Source of the DNA: Bryoerythrophyllum caledonicum
Lineage: Eukaryota; Streptophyta; Bryopsida; Pottiales; Pottiaceae
Length of the DNA: 64,000 nt
Direction: 5' to 3'
Assembly: GCA_963971425.1 (NCBI GenBank)
Contig: OZ020514.1
Coordinates: forward strand, 23,223,406 to 23,287,405
Made by a program: the position numbers and the translations under genes. Positions 1,303 to 35,560 of the stretch are shown here, one piece after another (the stretch's first letter is position 1; each line of letters starts with the position of its first letter). The notes under the pieces were generated by a model. That model was not told the origin of the DNA. It was given only the letters and a program-made list of their open reading frames with translations, and searched no databases.

Positions 1303-1347
1303 CTGCAGAATGCAACACCACATGGATATTGATATCACATTGTGGCT

Positions 1348-1859
1348 TATCCTCGAGTCGAGGATAGGAATTCTTATTCATGACAAACGATTATAGATTG
1401 TGAGTCCTGGTATCCTTGAGTCGAGGATAACATCAAATGAAAATTGTCGGATATTATGGATTCATGAATTTACTATCCTCGAGTCGAGGATACATTTTCT
1501 TGAGGCGTTTATTGTGTCGTGATTTAGAGGCTTGTTATCCTCGACTCGAGGATAAACATGGAATCAGAATGGTATTATTCGTGATGCCAGATATCGACAT
1601 GTGACGGGAAAATATATATTTCACATTCAATTTCATTGACTGCGTACAATTAAGCATGATTTTTGGTCCATTTTGTCGTAGAATTTCAACCAGTTTATCC
1701 TCGGCTCGAGGATATTGTACTTTTTGTCATGGTTTTTTTCTTGTATTTATTCTCGGGTCGATGATAAATTGCTTGAAATTCAAACAATTAGTAGAGAATC
1801 AGACGTCGTTTACTTCACCAATGAACCATGACAACAAGTTTATCCTCGGATTGAGAATA
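1348..1859. repeat. Palindrome array, family 1, upstream of the minus-strand gene
   Basis: Seven copies of the 19-bp palindrome TATCCTCGAGTCGAGGATA or close variants lie at 1348-1366, 1411-1429, 1474-1492, 1536-1554, 1696-1714, 1748-1766 and 1841-1859. The first four are 63, 63 and 62 bp apart, about six helical turns. The bases between them are unrelated to each other. The first copy lies 46 bp upstream of ATG 1302. Two copies are perfect palindromes outside the central base; the copies furthest from the gene are the most decayed. The same motif recurs upstream of the divergent gene at 7953. Binding sites for an element-encoded protein are the likeliest role, by inference. Confidence 0.9.
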
Positions 1860-3319: not shown

Positions 3320-5142
3320 TTAAATTTATGAATATTTAATTAAGTCTAATTTTTTTAATTCAGGTTAAGTTTGCTTGCGTTATATTCTTTAGAAGAGGTT
3401 TACATTTCCTTAATTTTTTTCTATTTTAGGCTTCTTTGAGATGAATATTCTATATTTTAAAGTTTAAATGAATGGAAAGTTAAAGAATTATAAACTTAGT
3501 TCAAAGACTTCGAGATAATTTTCATATACTCTCTTCAAAATTGTTATTTAACGCAAACTTGTTAAGATTTTAGAGTGTCTCCATTGTTTGAGATTGATTA
3601 CGCATTTAGCATTTGTACTTTGATGACTCTCATTTACTTCAAGTAAGTTTTAATTTCAACTATCTCCTGGCTTATCTACCTTTGTAGAACCACTTAAGGT
3701 GTTTAGAATACTTCAATATTACTTAACCCCAATAAAACTTCCTGGTCAATTTCACACCAAAATCGCTTCTAAACTGTTGATTATAGTGCAATGAGTAATG
3801 AAGGAAACAAATACTTGTATTTCCAAATTTTACCGTATGATTTAAAAAAATCATTACCAAATACTCAAATTACAAAACTTCATTGACATTGACCGCATGG
3901 ATTGAAAGATTTCTTCTCTACATTCAGTGTAGTCTTTTTTTTTTAATTTTAGTGGGATCGCCACTGTGGCTGCAGAGGCCAGGGAGCTGTAGCACTTCTC
4001 ACTTTTTCCTCAATCCAAATGAAACTAAATTTTCTCCGCAAATATTCATTTCGAAGATTACATCTCTATAAACATAGATTTGTACATCCTTTTCCGCAAA
4101 ATGATGGAGTCCCCGTTGTTCATTAGTAGCAATGTGGCGACATAGCAACGACCATTGATGGAATTCTGGCGGTGTGAAATCACAAATTTCCCCAAATTCC
4201 GGAAATATTCTATTTTAAGATATATTTTCCCCCTGTTGACTATTTTACGCCAAAAAAAAGTTCTTTCACTCCAGTTGTTGTTTAATACTTCTACTATTCA
4301 TGGGATTCTTATTGCATTACCATGATGTTTAGCATGATTCTAGTTTCTTATTATGTGTGAATAATCTAAATTTCAATAGAAACTTCTATGAAGAATTTAG
4401 AATTGCGTGGAGTCTGTATGTTTTACTTTGAGTGGTATTAACTTTTGAACCACAAATCCAAGAAACATAATTAAAACACCTCCACAAACCTTTGACTAAG
4501 GAAAATGGAGTATAAAAGTTTAAGACATAAATATAGATTTTTTGAATCACGGATATTTGCCCAAACTCAAGAAATCTCCTCCAAGGAGATTTTGGTCTTT
4601 AGGGGTTAAGTATAGATTTCCTAGAAGAGCTAGAACAATCTACAAGGTTTACTTTCATCTAATATTTTATAAAAACATTTCATTATAGTTTTTATAAAAG
4701 TATTATGAAATATACATTTTTAAAAACATGGAATGATTTAACAACAATTGGTTGTTTATAAAATCAAGTTTATAACAATATGATATTTAGGATTATTGAT
4801 ATCATTTTATAGTTTCCTTCTTGGTATAGAAAAGAATACAATGTAAGTTTGTGTTTGTAATAACTTATTTGATTTAAAGATTTGCATGTGATATTTTGCT
4901 TCTCTATAATTTCTCTTTGTCTAACATTTAATTTTTCCATTGATTGGTAATTCGATTTATCAAATTGTTTGGTGTTCTTTTATACCATTCTTCTGAAGAT
5001 ATATTGTAGAGCCTGCTTGGTTTAGATTCTACAACAATTTCAACCTTCCACGTTTAAAAAATATTTTAAGTTGTATTCAAGATTTTTTTTGTTTGAAAAT
5101 AAATAAATATTGTTTTAAATTTTCCTTATTACCTAATTTAAG
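3320..5142. other. AT-rich spacer, no gene recognised
   Basis: There is no coding sense on either strand. The frame at 3883-4071 is short and composition-driven. This is part of the roughly 5-kb spacer between the two palindrome arrays. Confidence 0.6.
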
Positions 5143-5894: not shown

Positions 5895-6088
5895 GTTCGA
5901 CTTATTTTTAAAGATTGTGAACAAAATTAATCTTTTTTCCCCTTTTTCGTCAACTTTGAAGAACAAATATGTGTATGACATAAGTCCGGTGGACATGGAC
6001 TTAGCGGTGGATCAAATAAACACTTTATTCACGCCGCCCTTCGAACTAGAGTTCTTCTTCTTCTTGTGTGTGACAAAAAACATTTATC
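5895..6088 (+). repeat. Direct repeat B, copy 2
   Basis: Second copy of 5143-5336. It lies inside a 77-codon open frame beginning at 5872 that has no recognisable product; I do not call it a gene. Confidence 0.8.
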
Positions 6089-6530: not shown

Positions 6531-6723
6531 GTTTTTCCGCCCAAAAATGCAGCTATTGGAAAAAAAAATTCAAGTTTCCCGCCCACCTCCGTTTTTTGTG
6601 CACCGAAGTCCATCACGACATTCTGACTTTCCCCTAGAAATACTCATTTCGAACTCTTCCCTCTCTTTCTTCTCTGTGCCTTGCCTCCGCTTCCACTTCT
6701 GTGCTTTAGGTCTTGTCTCTACT
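6531..6723 (+). promoter_or_regulatory. Putative promoter and 5' leader of the 7953 gene
   Basis: Two E2F-like motifs (TTTTTCCGCCC at about 6532-6542 and TTTCCCGCC at 6575-6583) are followed by a CT-rich leader (CCCTCTCTTTCTTCTCTG, from about 6659). A GTAAGA donor-like site lies at 6726. If that donor is used, the palindrome array lies in a 5'-leader intron ending at the AAG directly before ATG 7953. The motifs are visible; the function is inferred. Confidence 0.35.
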
Positions 6724-7046
6724 AGTAAGATACTGGTTTTTATTGTTGTAGATCGTGTTTTGGCATACCATCGTTTTGGATAGTTTTTTAGGGCAAGAGT
6801 GTAAGTGTGGTTGTATTTCTTATGTGGTTGTATTTTTTGCTCGTTGGTTGAAATCATTTTCATTTTCTATTTGCTTGTGTCGCACATGTCATTTCAATGT
6901 TTTCTCCTCTGCTCTCTGTGCAAGATCACAGGTCTCTCCATTGCACGTTACTCAGTGATATTGACCACTTTAGCGGTTCTTGTTCGTCTCTAAACTAAAT
7001 CTCTACCTGTGACACTCCGCATATTACGGAATCACTGTAGCACTGT

Positions 7047-7848
7047 TATCCTCGGATCGAAAATAACCTGAATTCACATAATCAAATCAAATCCATCACT
7101 GATGGGACATTACCAATGAGGTTTATCCTTGACTCGAGAATAGAACTATTTAATCTTGGTTCATTCGTGTAAAGTACTGTACTGTAAGAAAAAGGCGATT
7201 GAAATTGAAAAAACAATTATCCTCGACTCAAGGATAACCGATGTTGATTCTTTGGAATTCGATGAATATACAATGAGTAAATCATGAATTCATCAGCTAT
7301 ATCAGGGTTTGATGTCACGTCAAACTTTGCACAATATGGGTGGTTTATCCTATTTGTGTGTTATCCTCGAGTCGAGCATATAAAAAGTATGATATATAAT
7401 TACTGGATCATTTAATTTATGATGGTTATTCTCGAGTCGAGGATAACTAACTTCGAGTTAAATTTCATCTGAGATGCATGTATAGTGTAGACTGTGAGGT
7501 GGTGAATGCCTATGTCATTCACGCACTAATGTGTTTCAGATATCATTTACAATTCTATCCTCGGGTCGAGGAAAACACATTGAGGCTTCCTGCTATTTGT
7601 TCAGTTCTCATTAAAAAAGATTAGTTCCTTGCAATTTCATATTGATGGAGATGATTTAACAAATCCGGATTTTGATAAATAATTTTTTGAATGCTGATCT
7701 TCGTTTGAATTGTTGTGTATATTTCGTGTGTTCTCTCCAGGTTTAAATCATCACTGTGATGTTATGCCTGGATGTGGTTTTCATTATATGATCTCCTAAT
7801 TTAGTGTTGAAATATTCAATATCAGGAATTATCCTTGTGTCGAGGATA
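7047..7848. repeat. Palindrome array, family 1, upstream of the plus-strand gene
   Basis: Seven copies of the TATCCTCGAGTCGAGGATA palindrome or variants lie at 7047-7065, 7124-7142, 7218-7236, 7362-7380, 7427-7445, 7556-7574 and 7830-7848. Spacing is irregular (65-274 bp). The array ends 105 bp before ATG 7953. It has the same motif as the array at 1348-1859, so both divergent genes carry it. Confidence 0.9.
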
Positions 7849-7952
7849 ATTCTTATTTGTGTCTATCTCCTCTGATAAGAGCCGTTCTATACAAATATGC
7901 CGATTTTTTTGGATAACTAATCCTCTATCCTTTTCATTGTGATATCTTGAAG

Positions 7953-10587
7953 ATGGAAGAACGCTCATACGACGGTGTAGCCCGAGTTCCACCTACCTTA
8001 CCTCCAGGTGTTGCTGCATGTGAGGGCATTTCTTGCGCATCGAGGTTCTCAAAGCGCGTTATCCTTCGAAACACATCTGGGGCTGATGTTGCAATTGGAC
8101 TTTGCCAGAGTGTTGATTCTGGATTTGTTCCACTAACTAGTGGTCGGCCACTTGGAGATGATCATGTTGCTATTCTAATCGCTGAATGCTTAGACGAGAC
8201 TAAAATTCCATTGAATTGGATATTTGCCCTCCGAGCATGGCCTACTCGACAGATCTTTCTTTGCAATGTGAGTTTGTATGACCAAGAGCAAACTAGCATA
8301 TACAATGTTGCTCTGAAAGTATTCCGTCGCGGACCTAGAGTAGGCATTCGACAGTACGAAACCACTCGTCAGAGGGTAGAGGGTCCTCCCCATCAAAGAA
8401 AGAAGTACTTTTTTCTTCACAATCGATCAACTCTGTTGCGAGCACCGTCTGTTGTCCAAGAAATTGTACTCAACAATTTCCACGGTGTTCAGTTACTGTA
8501 CTTCGCTCCCAAGTTTACCGTGACATTGGAGGTGTTTTCTTTCAGAAACATGTTTGGCTAAATGTACACATGCGAAACCACATGGATTCCAATGGCAACC
8601 ATGTAGTGACGCTTGATGGAATTGATGTATGCCTAAATGCACAGTGTACTATCATGGGGGTTAGCGGAGCGACATTCTACCGGTACAAACGAGAGGCAAA
8701 GGATGGGATGCGGGCAGCGGCACATAGCAATACTGGTTCAAAGAAGCCTCGGACTCATACCCTACAGGCAATTGCTACTCTGCATGATATACTTGATGAT
8801 GCTGCCGATCACAGTCCTAATAAGACAACTATACTTGGCACTGGGGAAAAGGTGGTCTCCGAACACCTTCCTGCCTCTTTTCAGTGGAGTGGAGTGTTGC
8901 CCAAAGTGAATGAGGTTAATTCAAGATTTGGCCTCAAATCAATATCTTTGTCTGGTCTTAGTCAAATTCGGAGCTCTGAATTCGAACAATATTCTACGAA
9001 GAAGCCTAGTGATAACTTTGCTCGCTGTAGAAGATGCGACCAACTCAAGCAATTGAAGAAGGCTTGTACACGAGGGTCCTCTGCATACAAAATGTGGGAA
9101 GTCAAATTGCAGTTACATCAAGCCTCTCAACAGACTCATCGTATTTTATATTATGGGAATCGGAAGAAATCGGAAGAAAAACCTAACGAGGTTGTGTGCA
9201 TCATCCATGATAAAATGGATCATAGCAAAACTGCATCTCCTCATTTTTCTCACAAGAATTAAGCGACGGAGTCCTTCATGAAACTGCCTGTGGCCGTAAC
9301 TGGAATGATTGCACATGGACATGGAGATGTTCGTTTTGCCCATTATAGTCTTGACATCTTCCCCACCGACTCAAACCACACTATTGGATCCATTGTGAAG
9401 TTACTTCGGGACTTAGAGAGTCCACCGGTGTATTCTTCTCATGAACTATTTGCGGGAGGCAGAGCTTCTTCTCTCTCTCAGGCTGTGCTTGCGGATGCTA
9501 ACGTGTGTCTTGGATCCCTAGTTGCTCCACCGGTTGAACCTGTTCCTGCAAAACAGTTACCACCAATTCTCCAAATGCAGTTGGATAATGCTATAGGGGA
9601 CAATAAAAATAGATTTGTGTTCGCTTTTTTTTCCCTCCTCGTTCATATGGGTATTTTTCGGGAAGTGTATGTCAACTTCTTACTTGTTGGTCACACTCAC
9701 AAGGATATTGACGCAATGTTTGGGAGATGGAGTTCCAAACTCAAGTCAAATAGCTATCCAATGATTCCACTCTTGATGAAATCATTCATGGATGCTAAGA
9801 AAATGCCTGTTATTCCACATCTCATTGAAGAGGTGCTTGATTTCAAGGGCTTTTTAGAAGTATATTTGTGCATTGGCAAAGAGGCCCTTATAGTCACACG
9901 AAGGGCCAACAATTCAAGTTTTACAAGGGCTCAAATGGATTGCCAAAGATGCAATACAAAATCCTTTGTACATATAGGGATTGGTTGCCTGAGGAGGATG
10001 GAGGAACTCAGCTATGGAAAGTGACAGAAGATGGTAGGCCAATTTTGCCTCGTGGACAGCCGATTCCTCTCATTCCGCGACATCATGAGAATTATGATGA
10101 GGTCCTGAAGGGTATCTCTGGGTTTCTAAGTCTTTGGGAATCTATGGCTAACGAGGATCTTTCAGGTGAATATAGGAGGAAGAACAAGCATATTATGTAC
10201 TATTGGAGAGGAGTTAAGGCTTCCCTCGAGGTGCCTTTGGAAGAATCGCCTCTCCTACGAGAGGGATCCTGGCCACTATCTAGATATGCTCCATCCATGG
10301 TGGATGAATATGAGATTGATGGGTCGTTGAGGGAGGAGTATGCAGAGGACCTTCCATTCATTGGACAACGACGTCATTGTCCCCTTCCATGGTTTCGGGT
10401 TGGTAGAGATGTGTACGAGGGCTATGTACTTGCGGTGCGTTCTGCTGATGGGGATTTGCGCCCATTTTGGATTGCCTTGGCATTGACTAATCCACATCCG
10501 GATCGTGAACATTCTCATGAGATTAAAGTTCAATACTTCAAACCTACATCCCAACATTATGTGGACTTGGAAACGTACCAAGGATAG
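7953..10587 (+). pseudogene. DUF7869-like putative transposase, broken
   Basis: One gene of about 870 codons reads across three open stretches. The start is ATG 7953 (MEERSYDG), directly after TCTTGAAG. The N-terminal part (to about 8530) contains 'RVILRNTSGADVAIGL' and 'RAWPTRQIFLCNVSLYD', also found in the 16977 gene. A one-base shift near 8530 leads into 'GVSGATFYRYKREAKDG', a possible helix-turn-helix, a C-x2-C pair (CRRCDQLKQL), then 'IIHDKMDHSKTASP', an in-frame TAA at 9260, 'LQMQLDNAIGDNKNRFVFAF' and 'GHTHKDIDAMFGRW'. A second shift near 9880 leads to the C-terminus. The ordered Asp residues (9209 or 9218, 9584, and 9704 or 9710) fit an RNase H-like D-D-D/E centre. The pattern matches DUF7869 proteins as I know them; transposase activity is inferred. 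Confidence 0.65.
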
Positions 10588-11564
10588 GATTCTAATCATG
10601 GGAATAATTGGGTAGAAGAGATTGAATCTGAACCAATCTAGTTGTATACAGATTGTATTTTAACGGCTTCGAAGCCTAGGTTGTGTGGAAACACAAGCTC
10701 CTCTAGATTAAAAATTCCTAAATCACATGTGGACATAATGAAGGCATCTTTAGCTGAATTATAGATTTCAACGGAGTTTGTGGTTTTTGGGGACTGGAGT
10801 TATTTTACCAATATAAAATAGGCGGGGTGCATGTTCTTTTTTGATATTTTGTTCTTCCGTACTGGATATCCTATTAAGTATGTAGTGAACTTGTATCTAT
10901 AGGATGGAATTGTAGACTTTGAATGTGCGCATAGCATATTTGTAGATAGAATTAGATTAGTGTTTGTAGTTACATGTAGTGATGTATTGTGTTGCTTTCA
11001 ATATTATACAACAGAGGCGGGAATTTTGTTTCATCATTGATGTATAAATGGCGGTCCACATTGTGAATGTCATTAATTGTACATTTATCCTTGATGCATC
11101 GATATTTTCTATTGATAGTAGTTATTGAATGGATTGCTACAATACATGCTAACTTTTCAATGCTAGCTATTTCAACGACCTTGTTGTTTGGAAATAGTAT
11201 AATCTCTTGAAATTGGTAATTATTTCTCTTTCAAATGAAAAGGTATGCATTCTAGGTGGAATTTAAATGAGTGTATATGTATATTTTAGTCCAATTTTAA
11301 ACCCTATTTAGAGGGGTTATCAAATTTATTGCCGCTTCTCTTTTCACGCAGTAATTTTATTCTTGCGATGATTTTTTTGGATGTATTAGTTTTTCTTAGG
11401 TAATATGCTCCATATCTTGGTACATTTTTGATAATCTATTACCTTTACACACACTATTGAATATGATATTCAATTTCATACAAAATGAATTCAATAATCC
11501 ATGATACGGCTAGATTATTTAGCATTTTCAATCGAGATTGAGTCTCAATTTAATACTAACTTCT
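10588..11564. other. 3' flank of the transposase-like gene, no gene recognised
   Basis: AT-rich and non-coding. It probably includes the 3' UTR of the 7953 gene. I could not find a terminal inverted repeat marking an element end. Confidence 0.5.
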
Positions 11565-11811
11565 TAGGTTTGGGCCCCTAACATCTTAAGTTTGGGCCCC
11601 TAACATCTTAAGTTTGGGCCCCAACTTCTCGGGTTTGGGCCCCTAACATCTGGAGTTTGGGCTGAAACTTAAAATGTTTGGGCCCTAAGCATCTTCGGTC
11701 ACGGCCTAAACTTATTTAATTTGGGCCCCAACTTCTTGGGTTTGAACCCAAACTTTTAGGGTTTGGCACCCAACATCTTAATTTTGGGCCCCAAACATCT
11801 TAAGTAATTGC
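11565..11811. repeat. GGGCCC minisatellite, about 25-28 bp unit
   Basis: About nine degenerate copies of a unit like AAGTTTGGGCCCCTAACATC. The first copies are nearly identical and later ones diverge (TTGGGCTGAAACTT, TTGGGCCCTAAGC). Confidence 0.9.
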
Positions 11812-11863
11812 AACTTGATTTTTTTCTCGCATGAATTTGATACTTAGAATATATATATATATA

Positions 11864-12684
11864 CTAGCAGTTGGCGCTTGCTTTGCAACGCATTAGTTCA
11901 ACCATTTTAATGTAGTTTTTATATCACAAAATATAAAAAAAGAAAGGTAACAACAATCTAGATAAAATATAAATATGTCTTTGAAACCTATGCATGAATT
12001 TTAATAATGTAATAGAATAGAATAGAAAAAAATAAATTAGGTTTTAGATTTTTTGCATTTTAACATGGAATTTCAAAAATGTAATGAACGTCAAATTTGT
12101 AATCAAGAGTTTCAAATTTATTTTGGATAAGCACAAATTGCAACACACAAATGCAAATTTCACACATCCACAAACTCAACTTGCAATTACAATCTCAATT
12201 TCACACACCCACAAACTCAATTTGCAATTACAATCTCAAAACTTGCAATCTCACCTCAAAACCTGTAATTTCAATCTCCACAACTCGAATATGCAATTTT
12301 GCAACTCCAACTTTGTATGCCAACCTCCAAGATCACAACTCCAACTTCAGAAACTTTTTCACTCCAAGTTTACAACTCATAATTTACAATTCAATCTTTT
12401 AGTGCTTAACTCAAAAAATATTTTGAACCTCAAATTTGTAATCAAGAGTACAAATTGCAATACACAAATGCAAATTTGTCACACCCAAAAACTCAAGCTA
12501 ATGCTTTGCAACGCATTAGTCCAACCATTTTAATGTAGTTTTTATATTACAAACTATATTTTAAAAAAAAAAAACATGATTCACTACGCGGTTGGCTGCA
12601 GCCTTCTTATAGTTCACTGCATGGTTGAATGCGCGATTGATCGCTGCATGGTTCACTACGTGAATTATGATTTTAGTAGTATGA
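11864..12684 (-). mobile_element. Small non-autonomous Helitron (family H2), minus orientation
   Basis: Read on the minus strand, the 5' end is TCATACTACTAAAATCAT (at 12684) and the 3' end is ...CTAG (11867-11864). It is preceded by A and followed by T, as for Helitrons. The hairpin GCGTTGCAAAGCAAGCGCC, with a bulge, lies about 10 bases before CTAG. Two internal copies of the 3' region (from about 11879 and 12501) and duplicated blocks at about 12090-12170 and 12420-12490 show internal expansion. The same family occurs on the plus strand at 42803-43207. Confidence 0.6.
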
Positions 12685-12690
12685 TGGCAG

Positions 12691-12792
12691 TGCACACTTT
12701 AGCTCTTTTGGAGCTAAAGTGTGCATATTTTCTTCTTAGTTCCCTACATTTAGTCATGGTGCACACTTTACCTCTAATAGTAAATCAGGAGA
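12691..12792. repeat. Palindrome array, family 3, first part
   Basis: A perfect inverted repeat with 15-base arms (TGCACACTTTAGCTC, 5-base loop, GAGCTAAAGTGTGCA) lies at 12691-12725. A half-decayed copy follows 69 bp later at 12760-12792, where the array is interrupted. The arms share TTTAGCTC...GAGCTAAA with the family 2 palindrome at 16334. Confidence 0.75.
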
Positions 12793-14022
12793 ACCGACGC
12801 CACCATCCCAATGGGCTGAGACACCGGCCCAGGCCGCACGAAGTGGGCTTTACCGTGTTTATTCCTGCATCTTGGTCCCTCTACCCCGATGGAGGTTCTT
12901 TTTTTCTAGTACACTATTTGCCAACAAGTTGGCAACTAGTTTTAGCCACCATAGTCGTGAATATTATCCCTCATTCGTTCAACTACTGCAGTTTATTTTG
13001 TAATAGCCCTCAATTAAAACTCTACTCTAGCACACAAATTTATTACTTGATAAATAGTGTTAGGTCAGAATCTTCTGCCTACCGGTCGCCATGCATTTAT
13101 TCTTCGTCTAATCTTCAACCTCAAATTCTTAAAGTCTTATCCACAACTATTCTCATTCCCATCTCTTGCATTTCCTTTACATTATTTAATATTATCTAAT
13201 GAATATTTAATGTGTAAACATATATTCAGCCAATAACTAATGAATTTATAATGAATTTTCATAGGATATTTAATATATATTTGTATATCTGTAACTTTTA
13301 TGCACAATTAAAGAATATTTAAATATTATTTAATGAATCTTTAAAGTTTTAAAAGTATATTTAATGATAGTTTTATTAATATTTGTATATTTAATGATTA
13401 TTTAGAGATTATTAAATGTATCATAAATGAATAATTAATGAATAGTGCATAAATTTCTAATGTAAAATCAATGTGTATTTGAATATTCAATGAGTATTTA
13501 ATGAATATTTACTGAATATGTAATGCACTTTGAATGTATATGTGATGGATGTCTAATGAGTATTTTACTTGTATTTCTATATTTATTGTAAGTTTAAGTT
13601 TTTTCCTTTTCCAATATTCCTTTCTTTCCTCACTTTCGTTACCAGAAGAATGTTCTTATATTTCTAATCTTCTACTTGTAGTTTCATTTTCCCTCCATAT
13701 TTTACATTCTACTATGTCCAATTTTTGATATTTTCCTTTTGCTCCATACCTACGTCCGGTTATTCCCAAGCTCTTTCTTGCAAATTCTTGTTTTTCTACA
13801 TGCAGTCAACCCTTCTTTACTATGATGCTCAAGATGTAATCAAATCATGATTAAGGTTTCCTACGGTAACTGTCCACAAGTAAAAAACTTTATGTTCCAC
13901 TATTTACTAGGATTGACATCTAGAGTAGTAGTTGACATTTAGTGTAATATAGTTTTGTCACTACACTTATTGTAAAGTTTACAATTACTGTATGGATTCC
14001 TATTTAGTGTCCACTACACTAG
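12793..14022. other. Sequence interrupting the family 3 array; AT-rich
   Basis: About 1.2 kb separates the two parts of the array. It includes an AT-rich tract at about 13196-13560 built from degenerate AATGAATATTTAATG-like words. The 207-codon frame at 12576-13199 crosses the Helitron and the array and is not a gene. No ends were resolved. Confidence 0.5.
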
Positions 14023-14270
14023 AAGCCATCTTGTCTATACTGGAGCTACATAGTGCAGTTTTGCTTTCTAATCCACTCCATTTAGTGATGGTGCACTATT
14101 TAGCTCTAGTAGAGCTAAACTGTACGTATTTTCTTTGTAGTTCACTGCACCTAGTGATGATCACACATTAGCACTACTAGAGCTAAAGTGTGTGCACACA
14201 TTCCTTTTAGTTCATTGCACGTAGTGATGATGCACACCTCTGCTAAAAACTGAGCTGATGTATGTGCAAT
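14023..14270. repeat. Palindrome array, family 3, second part
   Basis: Four units have right arms near 14043, 14112, 14180 and about 14252, a 68-72 bp period. The best copy is TGCACTATTTAGCTC, loop TAGTA, GAGCTAAACTGTACG (14092-14126). Spacers between units are alike (TTCACTGCAC.TAGTGATG), so this is a tandem repeat containing a palindrome. I recognise no gene downstream. Confidence 0.7.
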
Positions 14271-15600
14271 GTGTAATTCCACTTCTTCAAACAATCATTT
14301 TGAACTCCGTACTTCTCTTTATGGTTAAGTATTTCACAAGTGAAATAGAAATCTTTTGAATTTTAAAAAGTTTTTCAAAATATGTGGACCTAAATCTCCA
14401 ATAGTAATATTAAAAAGCAAAAAAATATGACGATCCCCTAGTCTTTAGTGGATATGAAGTCTATGTATTCTTGGTACCCTAAATCAATAATATGTGACAA
14501 TCTGTGAAAATGTATGAATTGGGCTATAGTCTTATTTTTCACTAGAAAAATAACATGTTTTTCCACAATATCAATCGTTCTAATATTACTTCTATGTATT
14601 GAAAATATCACATTCCATAGTGTGTCATAGCAAAAGGTTTTTAAGTTGCTCGACGTGCGGGCAATCGAGAAGTTTCTCTTTTGGCTAGCATACCGTTTAT
14701 TGAAGACATTCATTGAGAAAATAAATTACTTATATATATGCCTCATGACTTTTATCATCCTTCTACAAAATTTTGAGAATTTAAAATATAATTTGCGACC
14801 ACTGGAACGTGCTCAAAAACAAATTATTCTTTTTCTGCATGTATAAATAAATTCAAAATTACTTACATTACAAACATTTAATTATTCCTGATGCACTAAG
14901 TCATACACTTTGTATTAGTTATATTTTATATTCTAATTATCCTTTTTTTAATCATGAAGAGGTCTCTCCGTTTCTTTTTTAAATCTTTTAATAGTGTCCC
15001 ACTCTCTATGTTTTACAAATGACAAAGTCTTTAATTTCACGTCAAAGCATTAAATAAATTGTGTATGGTCAAGAATTCTTCCATCTTTCATGTCATGCTT
15101 AGATTGCCACACTCTAAACTCATGATAATACAATGTGAACTCAAGAATAAGATATTTTAATCCAACTATTGGTTTGCGCACATTTCAAGTCTTTGAGTAC
15201 CTCTAAGTGGACCCTAAACCAATTTCAATTCCAAATCCAGACCATGGGGACACTTGGGATTCTTGCAAAAGAATGAACATTCTAAATTGATTACAAAATA
15301 GTAACATTATACACATTAATAAAACCTCAAAGAAATGATGTCCAAAGCATGTTTGAATACATATTTTTTTGCTGAAAAAACACGTGCACATATAATATGT
15401 TTTTTGTTTTTTTTAATGCTACTCGTTTGTTAAGGTCTTTGCTTTGAACATTATAGATAAGTCCTATTTGGATTGTAATACAAATTCTTTCTAATCATCT
15501 CAATATCTTCTCTACATTTCCCTATACCTTAGTTGAATTGTCAATATCCGAAATATTCAAAGTATTATTATATTGAAATGAAATGACATCAGAAGTATAA
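14271..15600. other. AT-rich, no gene recognised
   Basis: Short open frames on both strands (for example 14438-14713 minus) overlap each other and show no family motif. I see no repeat structure of note. Confidence 0.5.
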
Positions 15601-15715
15601 CACCTAAACCAAGGACCCTAAACCCTGAAACCTAAACCTGAACCTAAATTCCAAACCCTAAACCCTAAATTGAAATACTTAACCCTAAACCTAACCCTAA
15701 TTCTAAGTGTTATCC
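15601..15715. repeat. Degenerate interstitial telomere-type repeat
   Basis: Repeated CCCTAAA/CCTAAAC words, reading as the complement of plant TTTAGGG, run for about 110 bp with many variants. Unique sequence on both sides shows it is interstitial, not a chromosome end. Confidence 0.85.
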
Positions 15716-15799
15716 TAAAATCGTGTATATTATTCGCATGTGCGAGTATATTCGAGGTATGTACTCTTCCTTATTTTAGTCAACCGGAAAGTAGTTGAT

Positions 15800-16250
15800 T
15801 CAGTTTCCCGCCGAGATTTCAAATTTATACTTTTTCAGGGGCTCTGGAAAAGTTTTATCCCGCCAATTCTGAAGTTTCCTCCCGCCAATTTTGAAACGGT
15901 CGTGTGTCCGTGAGTGACCTCGCTGAACCTCGAAAACTTTCTTCATTTTTTTCCGTCTCAGTTTGGTTGCAGTGCAAGGTTGGCGGGGAGAGTATTGGAG
16001 GTGGTACAACTGTAGGAGGTTGAGGAGGGCAACATCTATAGGTTGCGCACGATTGAGTAGGGCGCTTGCGCGAGGCAACAACGCATCGGTTGTCTTCTTC
16101 ATAAGGTACACAATGTATACTTCTTGCATTCTCCGTGCACTCTAGCAATTAGGATGTGACAGTGTTTAGGGTTATTGCGTTGGTTTCAGTTGCTACTGTG
16201 ATTTTGAAGAATCACTGTGAGTTTCTTGACGACTAACGCAAAGATTTGGG
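15800..16250 (+). promoter_or_regulatory. Putative promoter and leader of the 16977 gene
   Basis: Three E2F-like motifs occur: TTTCCCGCC at 15804-15812, and TCCCGCCAATT at about 15858 and 15880. The sequence then becomes locally GC-richer up to about 16150. The layout (CCCGCC motifs, leader, palindrome array, start codon) mirrors 6531-7953. Function is inferred from this parallel. Confidence 0.35.
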
Positions 16251-16333
16251 TTCTAGTACACAGAGAGGCAGATTCATAGGCTTAAGAGTTTATCCATATG
16301 AAGCCCAAAAATGTCGCCAAAAAATCACGGAAG

Positions 16334-16878
16334 GACAGTTTAGCTCGAGTCGAGCTAAGCTGTCATTCCATAATATTAACGACAGTTTTGCTCGAGTCGA
16401 GCTACACTATCAGCCCATCTTATTATCGGCAGTTTAGCTCGACTCGAGCTAAACTGTCCTTTGAAATAGGGTTAGACAATTTAGCTCGACTTGAGCTAAA
16501 CTGTCGTACTACATTGATAACGACAGTTTAGCTCGTCTCAAGCTAAACTATCTTACCTTATTTCCAAGGACAGTTTAGCTCGACTTGAGCTAAACTGTGA
16601 TACCTTATTTTATATGTCTGTTTACCTAAGCTCGAGATCAATTGTCATACCGTCTAATAGTCAACATTTCAGGTCGGGCCATGCTAAAATGTCATTGTCA
16701 AGGGTGAGATTATTTCATATTCGGATTAAAACTGATGGCATGAAATAGCATTCTTGTCATATAATACCATATGTGTTTACCTCGAGTCGAGCTAAATTTG
16801 CCTGTTCTACAATGTCAATTCAATTGAATGCAAGTTATTTTCAAGCGCCAGACCTTACCTCGATTCGAGCCCAATCAC
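16334..16878. repeat. Palindrome array, family 2, exact 47-bp period
   Basis: Eight 31-bp palindromes start at 16334, 16381, 16428, 16475, 16522, 16569, 16616 and 16663, each exactly 47 bp apart. The consensus is arm GACAGTTTAG, core CTCGAGTCGAG (or CTCGACTCGAG), arm CTAAACTGTC. The 16-bp spacers are all different. Copies decay towards the gene (units 7 and 8). Two further cores at 16781-16791 and 16859-16869 are out of phase. The array ends about 100 bp before ATG 16977. The core is shared with family 1. Confidence 0.95.
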
Positions 16879-16976
16879 CCTCTTCATATGCTTCTTCATT
16901 GATGTCTATTCCTACAAGTTACTCACCCATTCTTATTGGGCAGGATTATATAATATTTATCTCATTGGAATGCAGG

Positions 16977-17471
16977 ATGTCGTCTTCGGAGGGCGACGAT
17001 GTTAATGTTGACACTCCCGTGAACCCAGACCTTCCTGAGTTTGATGTTATTCCGCGCCGTCTCTAGGTTGGGATGACTGTTTTGCTTCACAATGGTTCGG
17101 GTATTCGCGTTGCGGAGGGGTTGGTTCGCAATGTCCGGTCTAGTGCAATTCTAGGTTCTTCAAGTCCTTTTGGGGATTCTAATGTTGTAGTATAGGTGTC
17201 GAGTACTTTTGTTCACAAAGAAGCTCCTGATGAATGGAGGTACTCGTTTAAGTCCTGGCCAATTCAACAAGTCTTTTTAAACGGTGTGAGTCTCTTTCAT
17301 CATTGCCTTAGGGACGTTTATAATGTCTGGTTGGTTGAACGGAACAAACCTTTATTATTTCCTTCCCATGTGGTACAATCGCCTACTGCTCCCATTGCTA
17401 CCGCAATTGGTACTTCAGGTGTCGCCTCAGCCATTGGTTGTATTATAAGTTTTCTTCCAATATCTATTTGA
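16977..17471 (+). pseudogene. Relative of the N-terminal part of the 7953 gene, truncated
   Basis: From ATG 16977 (MSSSEGDDVNVD), directly after TGCAGG, a single frame runs to 17471 with two in-frame TAG codons (17064 and 17193). 'TVLLHNGSGIRVAEGLVRNV' aligns with 'RVILRNTSGADVAIGLCQSV' of the 7953 gene, and 'FKSWPIQQVFLNGVSLF' with 'LRAWPTRQIFLCNVSLYD', so the two are homologous though distant. The DUF7869-like core is missing because the frame meets a minus-strand gypsy remnant by about 17450-17500. It carries its own palindrome array type (family 2). Product role unknown; by position the shared domain is the N-terminal module of the putative transposase. Confidence 0.7.
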
Positions 17472-28329: not shown

Positions 28330-29225
28330 CTAGTGGGGTACCCGTGTCCTCTAGACACAACATTTTTTTGTGTTGAGTCCCCACCTCCCCGTCCCCTAGC
28401 TCTTTCCCTCCAATCCATCGTCCCCTTGTTCCCCGTCTCCATCCCCGTCCACGTCCCCGTCTCCATCCCCATCTCCATCCCCGTCTCCATCCCCGCCCCG
28501 TCCTTTTATCCAAAACCCTAACTTTTAGCTTTTCATTTTATCCAAAACCCTAATTTTTAGCTTTTCATCCAAAAGCTCTTTTTCATCTACACGTTCATCC
28601 ATTGACGCATCGTTTTTCATCTACGCGTTCATCCATTGACGTGTTTGTCATCCTGTATTCATTCGATGTGTTTGTCATCTAGTGTGAAATTGTGGCTTAA
28701 TGTGATAGAGACTGAAAAATATAGTCCATTTTGGCAGTGTTTAGCTTATGTTGGCTATGAAATTAAACGGATTCGAGAGAAAGAGACTGTTGTGATCGAG
28801 TTGAAGGATTTACTCTCTCAAATACAAGATGACTTTAAAGTGAGTTCCCTTTCTTTATGGAGAAGCGATCAGGGAATTTGAACACCTTAGCCTTGTTTAT
28901 TCGACCCTGATCTAATAAATGATCACATACTTAGAAGGACAAATCAGTGGGGATGGGACACATAATTAGAGAACATTAGCCTGCCATGTGCCATGGGCCG
29001 AAGAGGTTGATTGTGTGGCGCCAATGAATACGGCGCTTGCCTACAGAGCATGAGGTTCTGGGTTCGAACCCCAGCATGGTCGTCGCAAAAGCTACTTTCT
29101 CGGGTACTTTTCTCAAGTCGTTTTTCATCACAATGCATCACTTTTCATCCAAAAGGATCGTTCATCCATCGACGTGTTCATCCATTTGACGCATTGTTCA
29201 TCCTAAATTCTTTTATTATATAGGA
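28330..29225 (-). mobile_element. Non-autonomous Helitron (H1), tandem unit 3, carries extra sequence
   Basis: 3' CTAG is at 28330-28333 and the 5' TCCTATATAATAAAAGAAT end at 29225. The hairpin stem is retained (GTGTC...GACAC). It is longer than units 1 and 2 because it holds a unique stretch at about 28660-28960 and a tRNA-like segment at 29016-29085. The 81-codon plus frame at 28636-28881 may be a captured fragment; I do not recognise it. Confidence 0.65.
29016..29085 (+). repeat. tRNA-derived SINE-like segment
   Basis: GGCGCTTGCCTACAGAGCAT followed by GAGGTTCTGGGTTCGAACCCC has the order of a tRNA anticodon arm and T arm, with an intact B box (GGTTCGAACCC). The D arm and acceptor stem do not fold well, so this is a tRNA-derived repeat and not a functional tRNA gene. 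Confidence 0.6.
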
Positions 29226-32816: not shown

Positions 32817-34066
32817 ATGGAGGAAGGAGGTTCAGGCGTCTATTCAAAAGGCACTAGAGACGATGAGGACGAAGAAGAATATGAGGAAGGGTTTTTTTCA
32901 GCAATGGTTGGTGCGGTTAGAGAGGAGGTGGAAGGTGAAGTGCGGGTGAGATGTAAGCCTGGTAGGAGTACAATCGGCAGACGATACATTTTCCGTGACA
33001 GGAAAGCATACCATCAACGCTAGTATCAGGATTACTTTGCTGAGAGTCCTACCTATGGCCATTTCAAGTTCCGTAGACGATTCAGAATGAGACGGGAATT
33101 GTTCGTAAGCATTATGGATACAGTGGCAAATTTTGATCCCTAGTTTGTCCAAGGTGTTGATGCGGTCGGCAAATTGGGTTTAAGCACACTGCAAAAATGC
33201 ACTGCAACAATCAGGATGCTTGCATATGGATTGCCTGCGAACGCGTGCAATGAGTATTGTAGGTTGGATGAGTCCATAGCCTCTGAGTGCATGGAACGGT
33301 TTGTAGTAGCAGTGAGAGGGTGTTTTGAGACTACTTACTTGAGGCAGCCCACGCGTCAGGATTTTGAGCGACAAATGGCCATCAATGAAGCACGAGGCTT
33401 CCTTGGGATGTTTGGTAGTCTTGACTGTATGCATTGGAATTGGAAGAATTGTCCGGTTGGGTGGCAAGGACAATTCAAAGATAAGGACAAGAACCGGTCA
33501 ATTATCTTAGAGGCCATTGCAGATCAGAGCTTCTGGATATGGCATGCATTTTTTGAAGTCCCCGGAGGCAATAACAACATCAACGTCTTGGATAGATCAC
33601 CTCTTGTTTCCAACATGTTGAGAGGTGAAGGCCGTAATCTCACCTTCCAGGTAAATGGCCATGTCTACCCTCGATTATGCCTTCTTGCGGATGGTATTTA
33701 CCCACCGTGGGCATGTTTTGTGCAACCAAGTGCCAGGAAGGTGCTCATAAGGATGTCGAGCGTGCTTTTGGAGTATTGCAGGCCAGGTTTGAGATACTGA
33801 AGAACCCCGTTAGGCAATGGGATCTGAGCACAATTGAAGACATCATGATGGCGTGTATAATCTTGCACAACATGATTATAGAGGACGAGCAGGGATTGTC
33901 ACTAGAGCCATTCATTGATTGGGGGCTTCCAGTGGAGCGCGTTAGACATCCTTTATCATTCAGAGAGTTGCAATCAAGCACCACGGAACTTCAGAATGTC
34001 GAAGCTCACTTTGCTTTGCGCAATGATCTCATAGAGCACTTGTGGAGGCTCAAAGGAGGGTTGTAG
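32817..34066 (+). pseudogene. PIF/Harbinger DDE transposase, broken
   Basis: From ATG 32817 (MEEGGSGVYSKG), the frame has in-frame TAG codons at 33021 and 33141 and a frameshift between about 33695 and 33750. The catalytic signature is visible: first D in 'SLDCMHWNWKNCP' (33423), second D in 'LLADGIYPPWACF' (33690), and E in 'HKDVERAFGVLQARF' (33758). The C-terminus '...MIIEDEQGLSLEP' also fits. Length (about 415 codons) is normal for plant HARBI1-like nucleases, which cut and rejoin DNA in the nucleus together with the Myb-like partner. It ends about 30 bp from the convergent partner gene. Confidence 0.85.
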
Positions 34067-34099: not shown

Positions 34100-35401
34100 T
34101 GTCAATAGAATTAGGAATTGAGGTTCAAACCTTGGCCACCATTTCTGTAACCAAGCATGTGATTTTCTAGTAAAGGCGGCTTGAATCGGACTTACACTTG
34201 CACTGTGAGAGCCGTACATCACATTTGACTGTCCAAAACTGAACCCTGCTCTAACTCTGCCATGGCTTGAATTCACGTAACTCACATCATGGCTGCCTCC
34301 GAAGCTCTGATCGCCGTGTGAGTGATTAGCATCGGCTGGAGTGTCTGGAATGCACTCCGTATCTTCCCAGCCGGAGTCCCCTCCATCACCTACAGACAAG
34401 CACAAAAGACGATGAGCACAAGACAAAAAACCAAAAAGACAGACAACGAAGACGTACTCCAGATTTCGCTCCTTCATACATGTCCAGATTCCGCTCCTTC
34501 AGCAGCCTCGCATGCTCAAGCTCCTCTAGCTCCGCTCTTCTTTGCTCCGATTGAATGCGCTGCTCAAGGCGCTGTATCTCCTCCTGCCAAGGTAGGGTGA
34601 AGTATTTGCGCGCTTCCTCGGTGAGACCTTCTTTCAACGGCATCGTGAACAAGGACATTGCGCACTGGTCTTGAATCGCATTTGCCTTGCGGAGGCTCGC
34701 TTCTGCCATGGTCTCCATTGCGCGCGCCTACGATTGAAGAATCTTCTCTCTCTTCTTCTACGCGGCTAAATCCGCCTTTGCTGCCTTCGAACCCTGCGGT
34801 CTGGTTGGCCTCGAGGGAAACCCTTGCGGGTTGATGACTGCGACGTCCTCCTCCGAAGCGCTGCCCAACCCGGTTGCATCGGTGGGGACCTCTGTGGCAG
34901 CTGTCGGAGGTGACTTGCGCTTCCCCATGCCTACACCTCTCGGAGCACTCTCCACCGCAATTGATCGCCGTTGCACATCGATTAGCGAATCCCACCACCT
35001 TGGCACATCCTTCAGAATCTGCCAACAATGCAAATAAACAAAACCTTGCTGCTTGGGATGCCTATCTCGATAAAACTGGAGCGCCTTCTCAACTACATCG
35101 TCTAGGGACGTCCCCGACTCTCTACAGTCAAATACTTGCTTGTACGCCCCACAGAATTCCCCCACGTCGTACTTAATGTGACCCCATTTTGTCTCTAGCG
35201 ACCTAGCACGGCGCACAGGATTTGTGCGTGGTTTGTTCTGATTGAAAAGAGTAGTGATACGCTCCCAAAATGCAGAATTGCGTTGACCATTGCCACAAAT
35301 TGGGTCATGCAAGATAGCAAGAAAACTTCTACACAAGCTTCGCTCCTCGTGAGCAGTAAAATTTCTACCCTTGCATGTCTTTCCCGCCTCTACGTGTGCC
35401 A
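34100..35401 (-). pseudogene. Harbinger Myb/SANT-like partner protein, broken
   Basis: Start ATG 35401 (MAHVEAGKTCKG; an ATG lies 9 bp upstream). The N-terminal trihelix, Myb-like domain includes 'FTAHEERSLCRSFLAI', 'NSAFWERITTLFNQNK' and 'RSLETKWGHIKYDV', as in plant Harbinger ORF1 proteins often annotated NAM-associated. In-frame TAG codons occur at 34760-34758 and 34730-34728, after which the same frame continues (METMAEASLRKANAIQ) with a coiled coil rich in E/R/L to about 34450. A probable intron (about 34391-34450, ending CTGTAG) joins a Ser/Gly-rich tail (VGDGGDSGWEDTECIP). The partner helps the transposase bind element ends in the nucleus. Confidence 0.75.
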
Positions 35402-35560
35402 TGGTGGCCACTATCAGGACCGGTAGCGGGAGGACTGGTTCTCACGGCAAATACGAAAAAACTGCGGGAGGTCATCTGGCGGGAGCGGCACAATGACGGG
35501 AGGGGTTGCGAAGGCGTTGGAGCATCGGGGGCAACGGTCACAACATTGAGGATGCTCTTA

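Follow-up and report, generated by a model that had tools for sequence, protein, structure and literature searches.

A 47-bp-period array of palindromes as a putative binding-site cluster in a DUF7869 transposon of the moss Bryoerythrophyllum caledonicum

VANDAL transposons of Arabidopsis are described (PMC5735166) as carrying many copies of short motifs in their own non-coding regions, including upstream regions and introns, and tandem repeats of the VANC motif are described as expanding, contracting, and differing between related families, with the short sequence YAGTATTAY as the motif of VANC21. Together with the subterminal repeats of CACTA (En/Spm) transposons (PMC8978399), these motif arrays appear to be the closest analogues of a repeat array that we report here from the genome of the moss Bryoerythrophyllum caledonicum. 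The array lies in a stretch of 64,000 nucleotides (hereafter the window), whose coordinates are used throughout unless a particular transposon copy is named.

Like VANDAL elements with their VANC motifs, the moss element contains many copies of its motif, arranged in tandem, variable in number, and specific to the family. Unlike the short VANC21 motif given there, the moss site is a palindrome of 21–31 bp. The comparison with CACTA transposons (PMC8978399) also reveals differences: in place of CACTA termini and a 3-bp target duplication, the terminal inverted repeats of the moss element start with AACACC and the clean duplication measures 4 bp (in one copy), most of its sites are internal, and its transposase-like gene is of the DUF7869 type. 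A literature search found no paper using the word DUF7869. Among the matches listed by searches for palindromic subterminal repeats in moss transposons, or for a new superfamily, no title or abstract opening describes this element, which does not in itself prove that it is unpublished.

The palindrome array and its host transposon

The array spans positions 16334..16693 (+) and comprises eight units, six of them intact (units 1–6) and two decayed (units 7 and 8), each composed of a 31-bp palindrome (GACAGTTTAGCTCGASTCGAGCTAAACTGTC) and a 16-bp spacer. The geometry given in an initial annotation was confirmed: the start-to-start period is exactly 47 bp across all eight units, from 16334 to 16663, the spacer is 16 bp long in every interval, and the decayed units stay in phase. 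The same annotation counted eight 31-bp palindromes, a description that holds for units 1–6, with 12–14 of 15 positions self-complementary, and fails for units 7 and 8, with 7/15 and 10/15, respectively. With up to three mismatches allowed, the window contains 18 matches to the half-palindrome GACAGTTTAGCTCGA, 14 of them from 16334 onward, vs. a mean of 1.33 and a maximum of 5 in the shuffled control; the pattern is far beyond chance. Downstream of the array, a solitary palindrome site (16775..16803, +) and a second, degenerate one (16853..16881, +) are both off phase, at distances of 108 bp and 78 bp, respectively.

The host of the array is a DNA transposon of approximately 18 kb that is bounded by terminal inverted repeats and contains a transposase-like gene of the DUF7869 type. 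A full-length copy, L025, measures 17,901 bp. Alignment of copies identified a sharp right end (...AATATGGTGTT or ...CTCCCAATATAACGAATATGGTGTT) common to 13 loci, beyond which the flanks differ, and a left end (AACACCATATTCG or AACACCATATTCGTTATATTGG) found in three loci. Terminal inverted repeats, the hallmark of class II elements, are present at these sharp ends and extend over 29 bp at 90% identity when the left end of one copy (L016) is compared with the right end of another (L010). Among the two copies with both ends, the target-site duplication reads TTGA/TTGA in L010 and AAAG/TAAG in L025, a clean 4-bp duplication being found in one of the two (L010). MULEs duplicate 9 bp of target sequence, unlike the moss element with its clean duplication of 4 bp, a Sola-like length that is no more than a lead.

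The window contains a truncated copy of this transposon (11556..17354, +), from which the left part and everything to the right of 17354 are missing, and no terminal repeat of the element was found within the window. The 5′ part of its DUF7869 transposase-like gene (MSSSEGDD..., with stops) occupies 16977..17354 (+), and beyond 17354 the sequence is no longer homologous to other copies. The array ends ~0.28 kb upstream of the first ATG of this frame (16977); it may be located in the promoter, in the 5′ UTR, or, with an exon further upstream of 16977, in the first intron. A second gene is encoded on the opposite strand in the left half of the element. Another tandem array of the element, with units of ~21/43 bp and GTTTGGGCCCAAAC-like motifs, is found at 11556-11805.

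Individual copies contain additional features. In L016, a NIF/FCP1-like phosphatase frame (6614-7465, −; PF03031, 2.9e-16) lies 1.4–2.3 kb from the left end and is possibly a captured gene. At oriented position 4697/4698 of the same locus, the left end of another copy (AACACC...) directly abuts a palindrome array at its first base, which probably reflects nested insertion at the edge of the array. Across the window, an Rfam scan recovered only a tRNA (29009-29082, +; 36.4 bits), which ARAGORN did not report, and a Plant_tran transposase frame (33144-34066, +; PF04827) faces a NAM-associated frame (34758-35441, −; PF14303), a pair that looks like a PIF/Harbinger element.

With up to two mismatches allowed in its 16 bases, the palindrome TTTAGCTC-N5-GAGCTAAA occurs at 24 sites in the 17,901 bp of L025 and is absent from ~2.3 kb of its flank. 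Single sites lie near either end (642 bp in from the left, 622 bp in from the right), an array with a period of 52–53 bp lies before the start deduced for the second gene, two sites 68 bp apart form a pair mid-element, and the 47-bp array is also present, the other sites being single. Arrays with periods of 69 bp and of 71–73 bp are found in other copies of the element. In the window copy, the segment 12684..12780 (+) retains one palindrome site (12698) and lacks the second site that other copies have 68–69 bp further on, while a repeat of 70-bp period (14083..14237, +) has sites at 14099 and 14167. Judging from the reading frames, the sites appear to lie in non-coding parts of the element. 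Genome-wide, the exact palindrome was found at 6,048 places and its reversed control at none.

Copies of the array and the evolution of its units

The array was searched, with 100 bp on each side, against the moss's own 437-Mb genome and is a dispersed repeat: a first look returned 553 candidates, and all 40 of those scored match at 77–100% identity (window included). The 40 arrays examined comprise the window, 20 loci with ~4.7 kb per side, and 19 loci with ~0.4 kb. Counting only the longest cluster of each locus, homologous loci contain between 4 and 11 units, the variation in copy number that characterizes tandem-repeat arrays. On contig C1 (65.2 of 437.4 Mb, ~15%), which could be a sex chromosome or a TE-rich one, we observed 22 of the 40 scored copies, a count biased by the ranking of candidates on similarity to a C1 copy.

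The spacers of the window array, described in the initial annotation as unique, are related to one another. Spacers 1–6 have a mean pairwise identity of 0.425, vs. 0.306 after shuffling, with only 2 of 5000 shuffles as high. Spacer 3 (16459..16474, −) is identical at 13 of 16 bases to the reverse complement of spacer 5 and is thus an inverted copy of it, which is evidence for inversion of a unit. Spacer 5 itself (TTACCTTATTTCCAAG; 16553..16568, +) has 12 exact places genome-wide, vs. one for the reversed control. Eight of these places fall within the 40 arrays examined, and two further ones are 94 bp (2 × 47) apart on opposite strands, like the spacer 3/5 pair of the window. When up to one mismatch was allowed, the seven window spacers had four matches outside arrays in 213,580 bases of array loci. 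Across the 40 arrays, the 242 spacers of 16 bp (other lengths were left out of the typing) group into 22 types at 12/16 identity with both orientations counted, and an inverted spacer pair (at least a 13/16 match) is present in 20 of the 40 arrays. The spacers are ordered, recur across copies, and have a weak common consensus.

These shared, ordered, duplicated, and inverted spacers therefore indicate that the array evolves through whole units being duplicated, lost, or inverted. Since copies differ by whole 47-bp units, with duplicated and inverted spacers visible among them and a weak consensus shared by all, the spacers are diverged copies of one tandem unit, an outcome that the initial annotation had itself named as speaking against its interpretation; its alternative suggestion, an amplification mechanism that fixes the spacing, agrees with these data. 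Since there is a palindrome in every unit, the 47-bp phase would survive an exchange in either orientation. Units are gained, lost, and inverted, mostly in whole 47-bp steps, and the constant period is probably a side effect of unequal or inverted exchange among units with a common palindrome, through which the sites would be amplified as tandem repeats.

Related families and the encoded proteins

Palindromes of a related family (TTATCCTCGASTCGAGGATAA) are located at 7045..7849 (+), upstream of a second DUF7869 gene, with irregular spacing (77, 94, 144, 65, and 129 bp between the first six). This gene (7917..10587, +) is broken into overlapping frames, and its protein is 57% identical over 166 aa. 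Six more palindromes of this family, spaced 63, 63, 62, 160, and 52 bp apart, lie at 1347..1767 (+), upstream of a minus-strand frame with its first ATGs near 1302–1323. The exact TTATCCTCGASTCGAGGATAA palindrome was found at 1,046 places genome-wide vs. 0 in the control. The palindromes of both families have the inner sequence CTCGASTCGAG in common and differ in their outer arms.

Three further DUF7869 genes were evaluated over a 1.7-kb stretch, 1.6–3.3 kb upstream of the domain; one has an array, a tandem of ~61-bp period with a different motif that is not clearly palindromic, and two have none, so that arrays are not established as a feature of all DUF7869 genes. At 1177-1697 of L054, upstream of a DUF7869 gene, we observed nine repeat copies with AGGCATATGTCTCACCC at a spacing of 55–62 bp. 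Genome-wide, a first look uncovered 3,613 DUF7869 candidates, and all 150 of those scored were above the cut-off (0 of 14 control genomes). At least 40 of the 150 have an open frame of at least 1,000 aa with no internal stop; as read from these sequences, the open-frame copies are probably recently active transposons.

Two other copies have open stretches that match the PF25273 (DUF7869) domain (2.6e-33 and 2.7e-39). Among the matches listed, the closest named proteins belong to two mosses, Ceratodon purpureus and Physcomitrium patens, in which a 518-aa query finds 65% and 50% identity, respectively, over 99% in both cases. An alignment of 22 DUF7869 proteins contains invariant D, E, and H residues, and few positions are strictly invariant among 72. 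Two fold predictions (pLDDT 53 and 67) gave no PDB match at E ≤ 0.001, the best Foldseek E value being 0.29 with a low-confidence model.

The gene pieces scanned gave no significant match to any known DNA-binding domain, and pieces of the second gene have no significant Pfam domain; one of them has a sub-threshold match to HTH_Tnp_Tc3_2 (E 0.13). Weak profile matches, such as ATP synthase b (E 0.0055) and YxeA (0.0052, which is below the cut-off of that family), were taken as chance. The second gene also contains the sequence INGQHSVAASK, whose ParB-like look received no support in Pfam, NCBIfam, or PDB profile searches. Between the two families, the second genes have no detectable similarity in their N-terminal frames.

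Putative function and alternative explanations

Considering these results, the array is likely a gene-proximal cluster of family-specific palindromic putative binding sites within the ~18-kb DUF7869 transposon. Each palindrome would be bound by a dimer, probably one encoded by the transposon. The first candidate for this binder is the DUF7869 protein, alone or within a complex, since the families share the DUF7869 gene and have second genes with no detectable similarity in the N-terminal frames; we would give it about an even chance. The product of the second gene is a possible, less probable binder, and a host factor seems rather unlikely. Such binding, close to both ends and ahead of both genes, could contribute to end recognition and to control of the element's own expression.

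A tandem repeat without function, in which the palindromes are alike through unit duplication and conversion alone and no protein recognizes them, is an unlikely explanation that nonetheless accounts for part of the data: units have clearly been duplicated and inverted, and units 7 and 8 at the edge are decayed, as expected where homogenization fails at array edges. However, separate arrays that differ in period and in spacers contain the same 16 core bases, which also stand alone near both ends, the second family retains the inner core despite its irregular spacing, and the 6,048 exact palindrome places contrast with none in the control.

The initial annotation favored a protein–DNA filament or an alternation of helical faces, that is, an arrangement requiring exactly 47 bp, and the lengths of the intervals bear on this directly. 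In the 40 arrays, 242 of the 270 intervals are 47 bp long, whereas 21 are 46 bp and seven are of other lengths. Changes in length by other than whole units amount to 2.41/kb in the array (from 195 intervals, taken only between units of motif score ≥25) vs. 4.36 and 4.16/kb in the flanks, as determined for 35 of the 40 copies (L016, L019, L026, L033, and L046, with an uncertain left edge or truncated, were left out). This lower rate, which leans toward the filament, may stem from homogenization or from spacing being mildly constrained. The filament and the fixed helical face are nevertheless disfavored, because the same site is found at 52–53, 68–69, and 71–73 bp and alone in the same element, and spacing is irregular in the second family; we regard such an arrangement as very improbable.

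The strong self-complementarity of the near-perfect 31-bp palindromes would also suit a role as DNA cruciforms or as RNA hairpins, such as sources of small RNAs, a function that we consider equally improbable given the pattern of substitutions. At symmetric positions of the palindrome, changes are mostly one-sided (438 cells); both-sided changes were found in 27 cells (12 compensatory and 15 not) against 28.5 expected (9.5 compensatory by chance), in a test of 183 distinct units among 259, from which duplicates and units scoring <25 had been left out. Compensatory changes are therefore not in excess, and nothing points to selection on base pairing. Variation is lowest at particular letters of TTTAGCTC, not across the entire stem. 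Among matched intact units, divergence is 0.064 in the core half-sites, 0.154 in the outer arms, 0.179 in the centre, and 0.139 in the spacer, in units preselected by motif score (<30 left out) and matched by spacer, a selection that favors low core divergence. Conservation of the core together with one-sided changes would fit sequence recognition by a dimer rather than a hairpin. Finally, a CRISPR-like array with acquired spacers has a negligible probability, since the regular repeat–spacer layout is its sole point of likeness and the spacers, instead of being unrelated and independently acquired between near-identical repeats, are mutually homologous, ordered, inherited, and shared between copies (as with the eight exact places of spacer 5 in the 40 arrays), so that the resemblance is superficial, as the initial annotation had already judged.

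Beyond the array as a cluster of putative binding sites, we tentatively propose that moss DUF7869 transposons have a control system of their own, in which a transposon-encoded dimer would read a family-specific palindrome, present in amplified arrays before both genes and also near both ends. Families would change the outer arms and keep CTCGASTCGAG, and protein and site would co-evolve independently of VANC and CACTA, possibly escaping silencing.

The window array shows how spacers can differ at a strictly constant period with no CRISPR-like or filament mechanism involved. The thousands of exact sites and of DUF7869 candidates in one genome point to a large group of transposons, probably active until recently, whose site code can be read, and the moss DUF7869 families would provide a natural series in which to follow the joint divergence of transposon proteins and their binding sites outside flowering plants.
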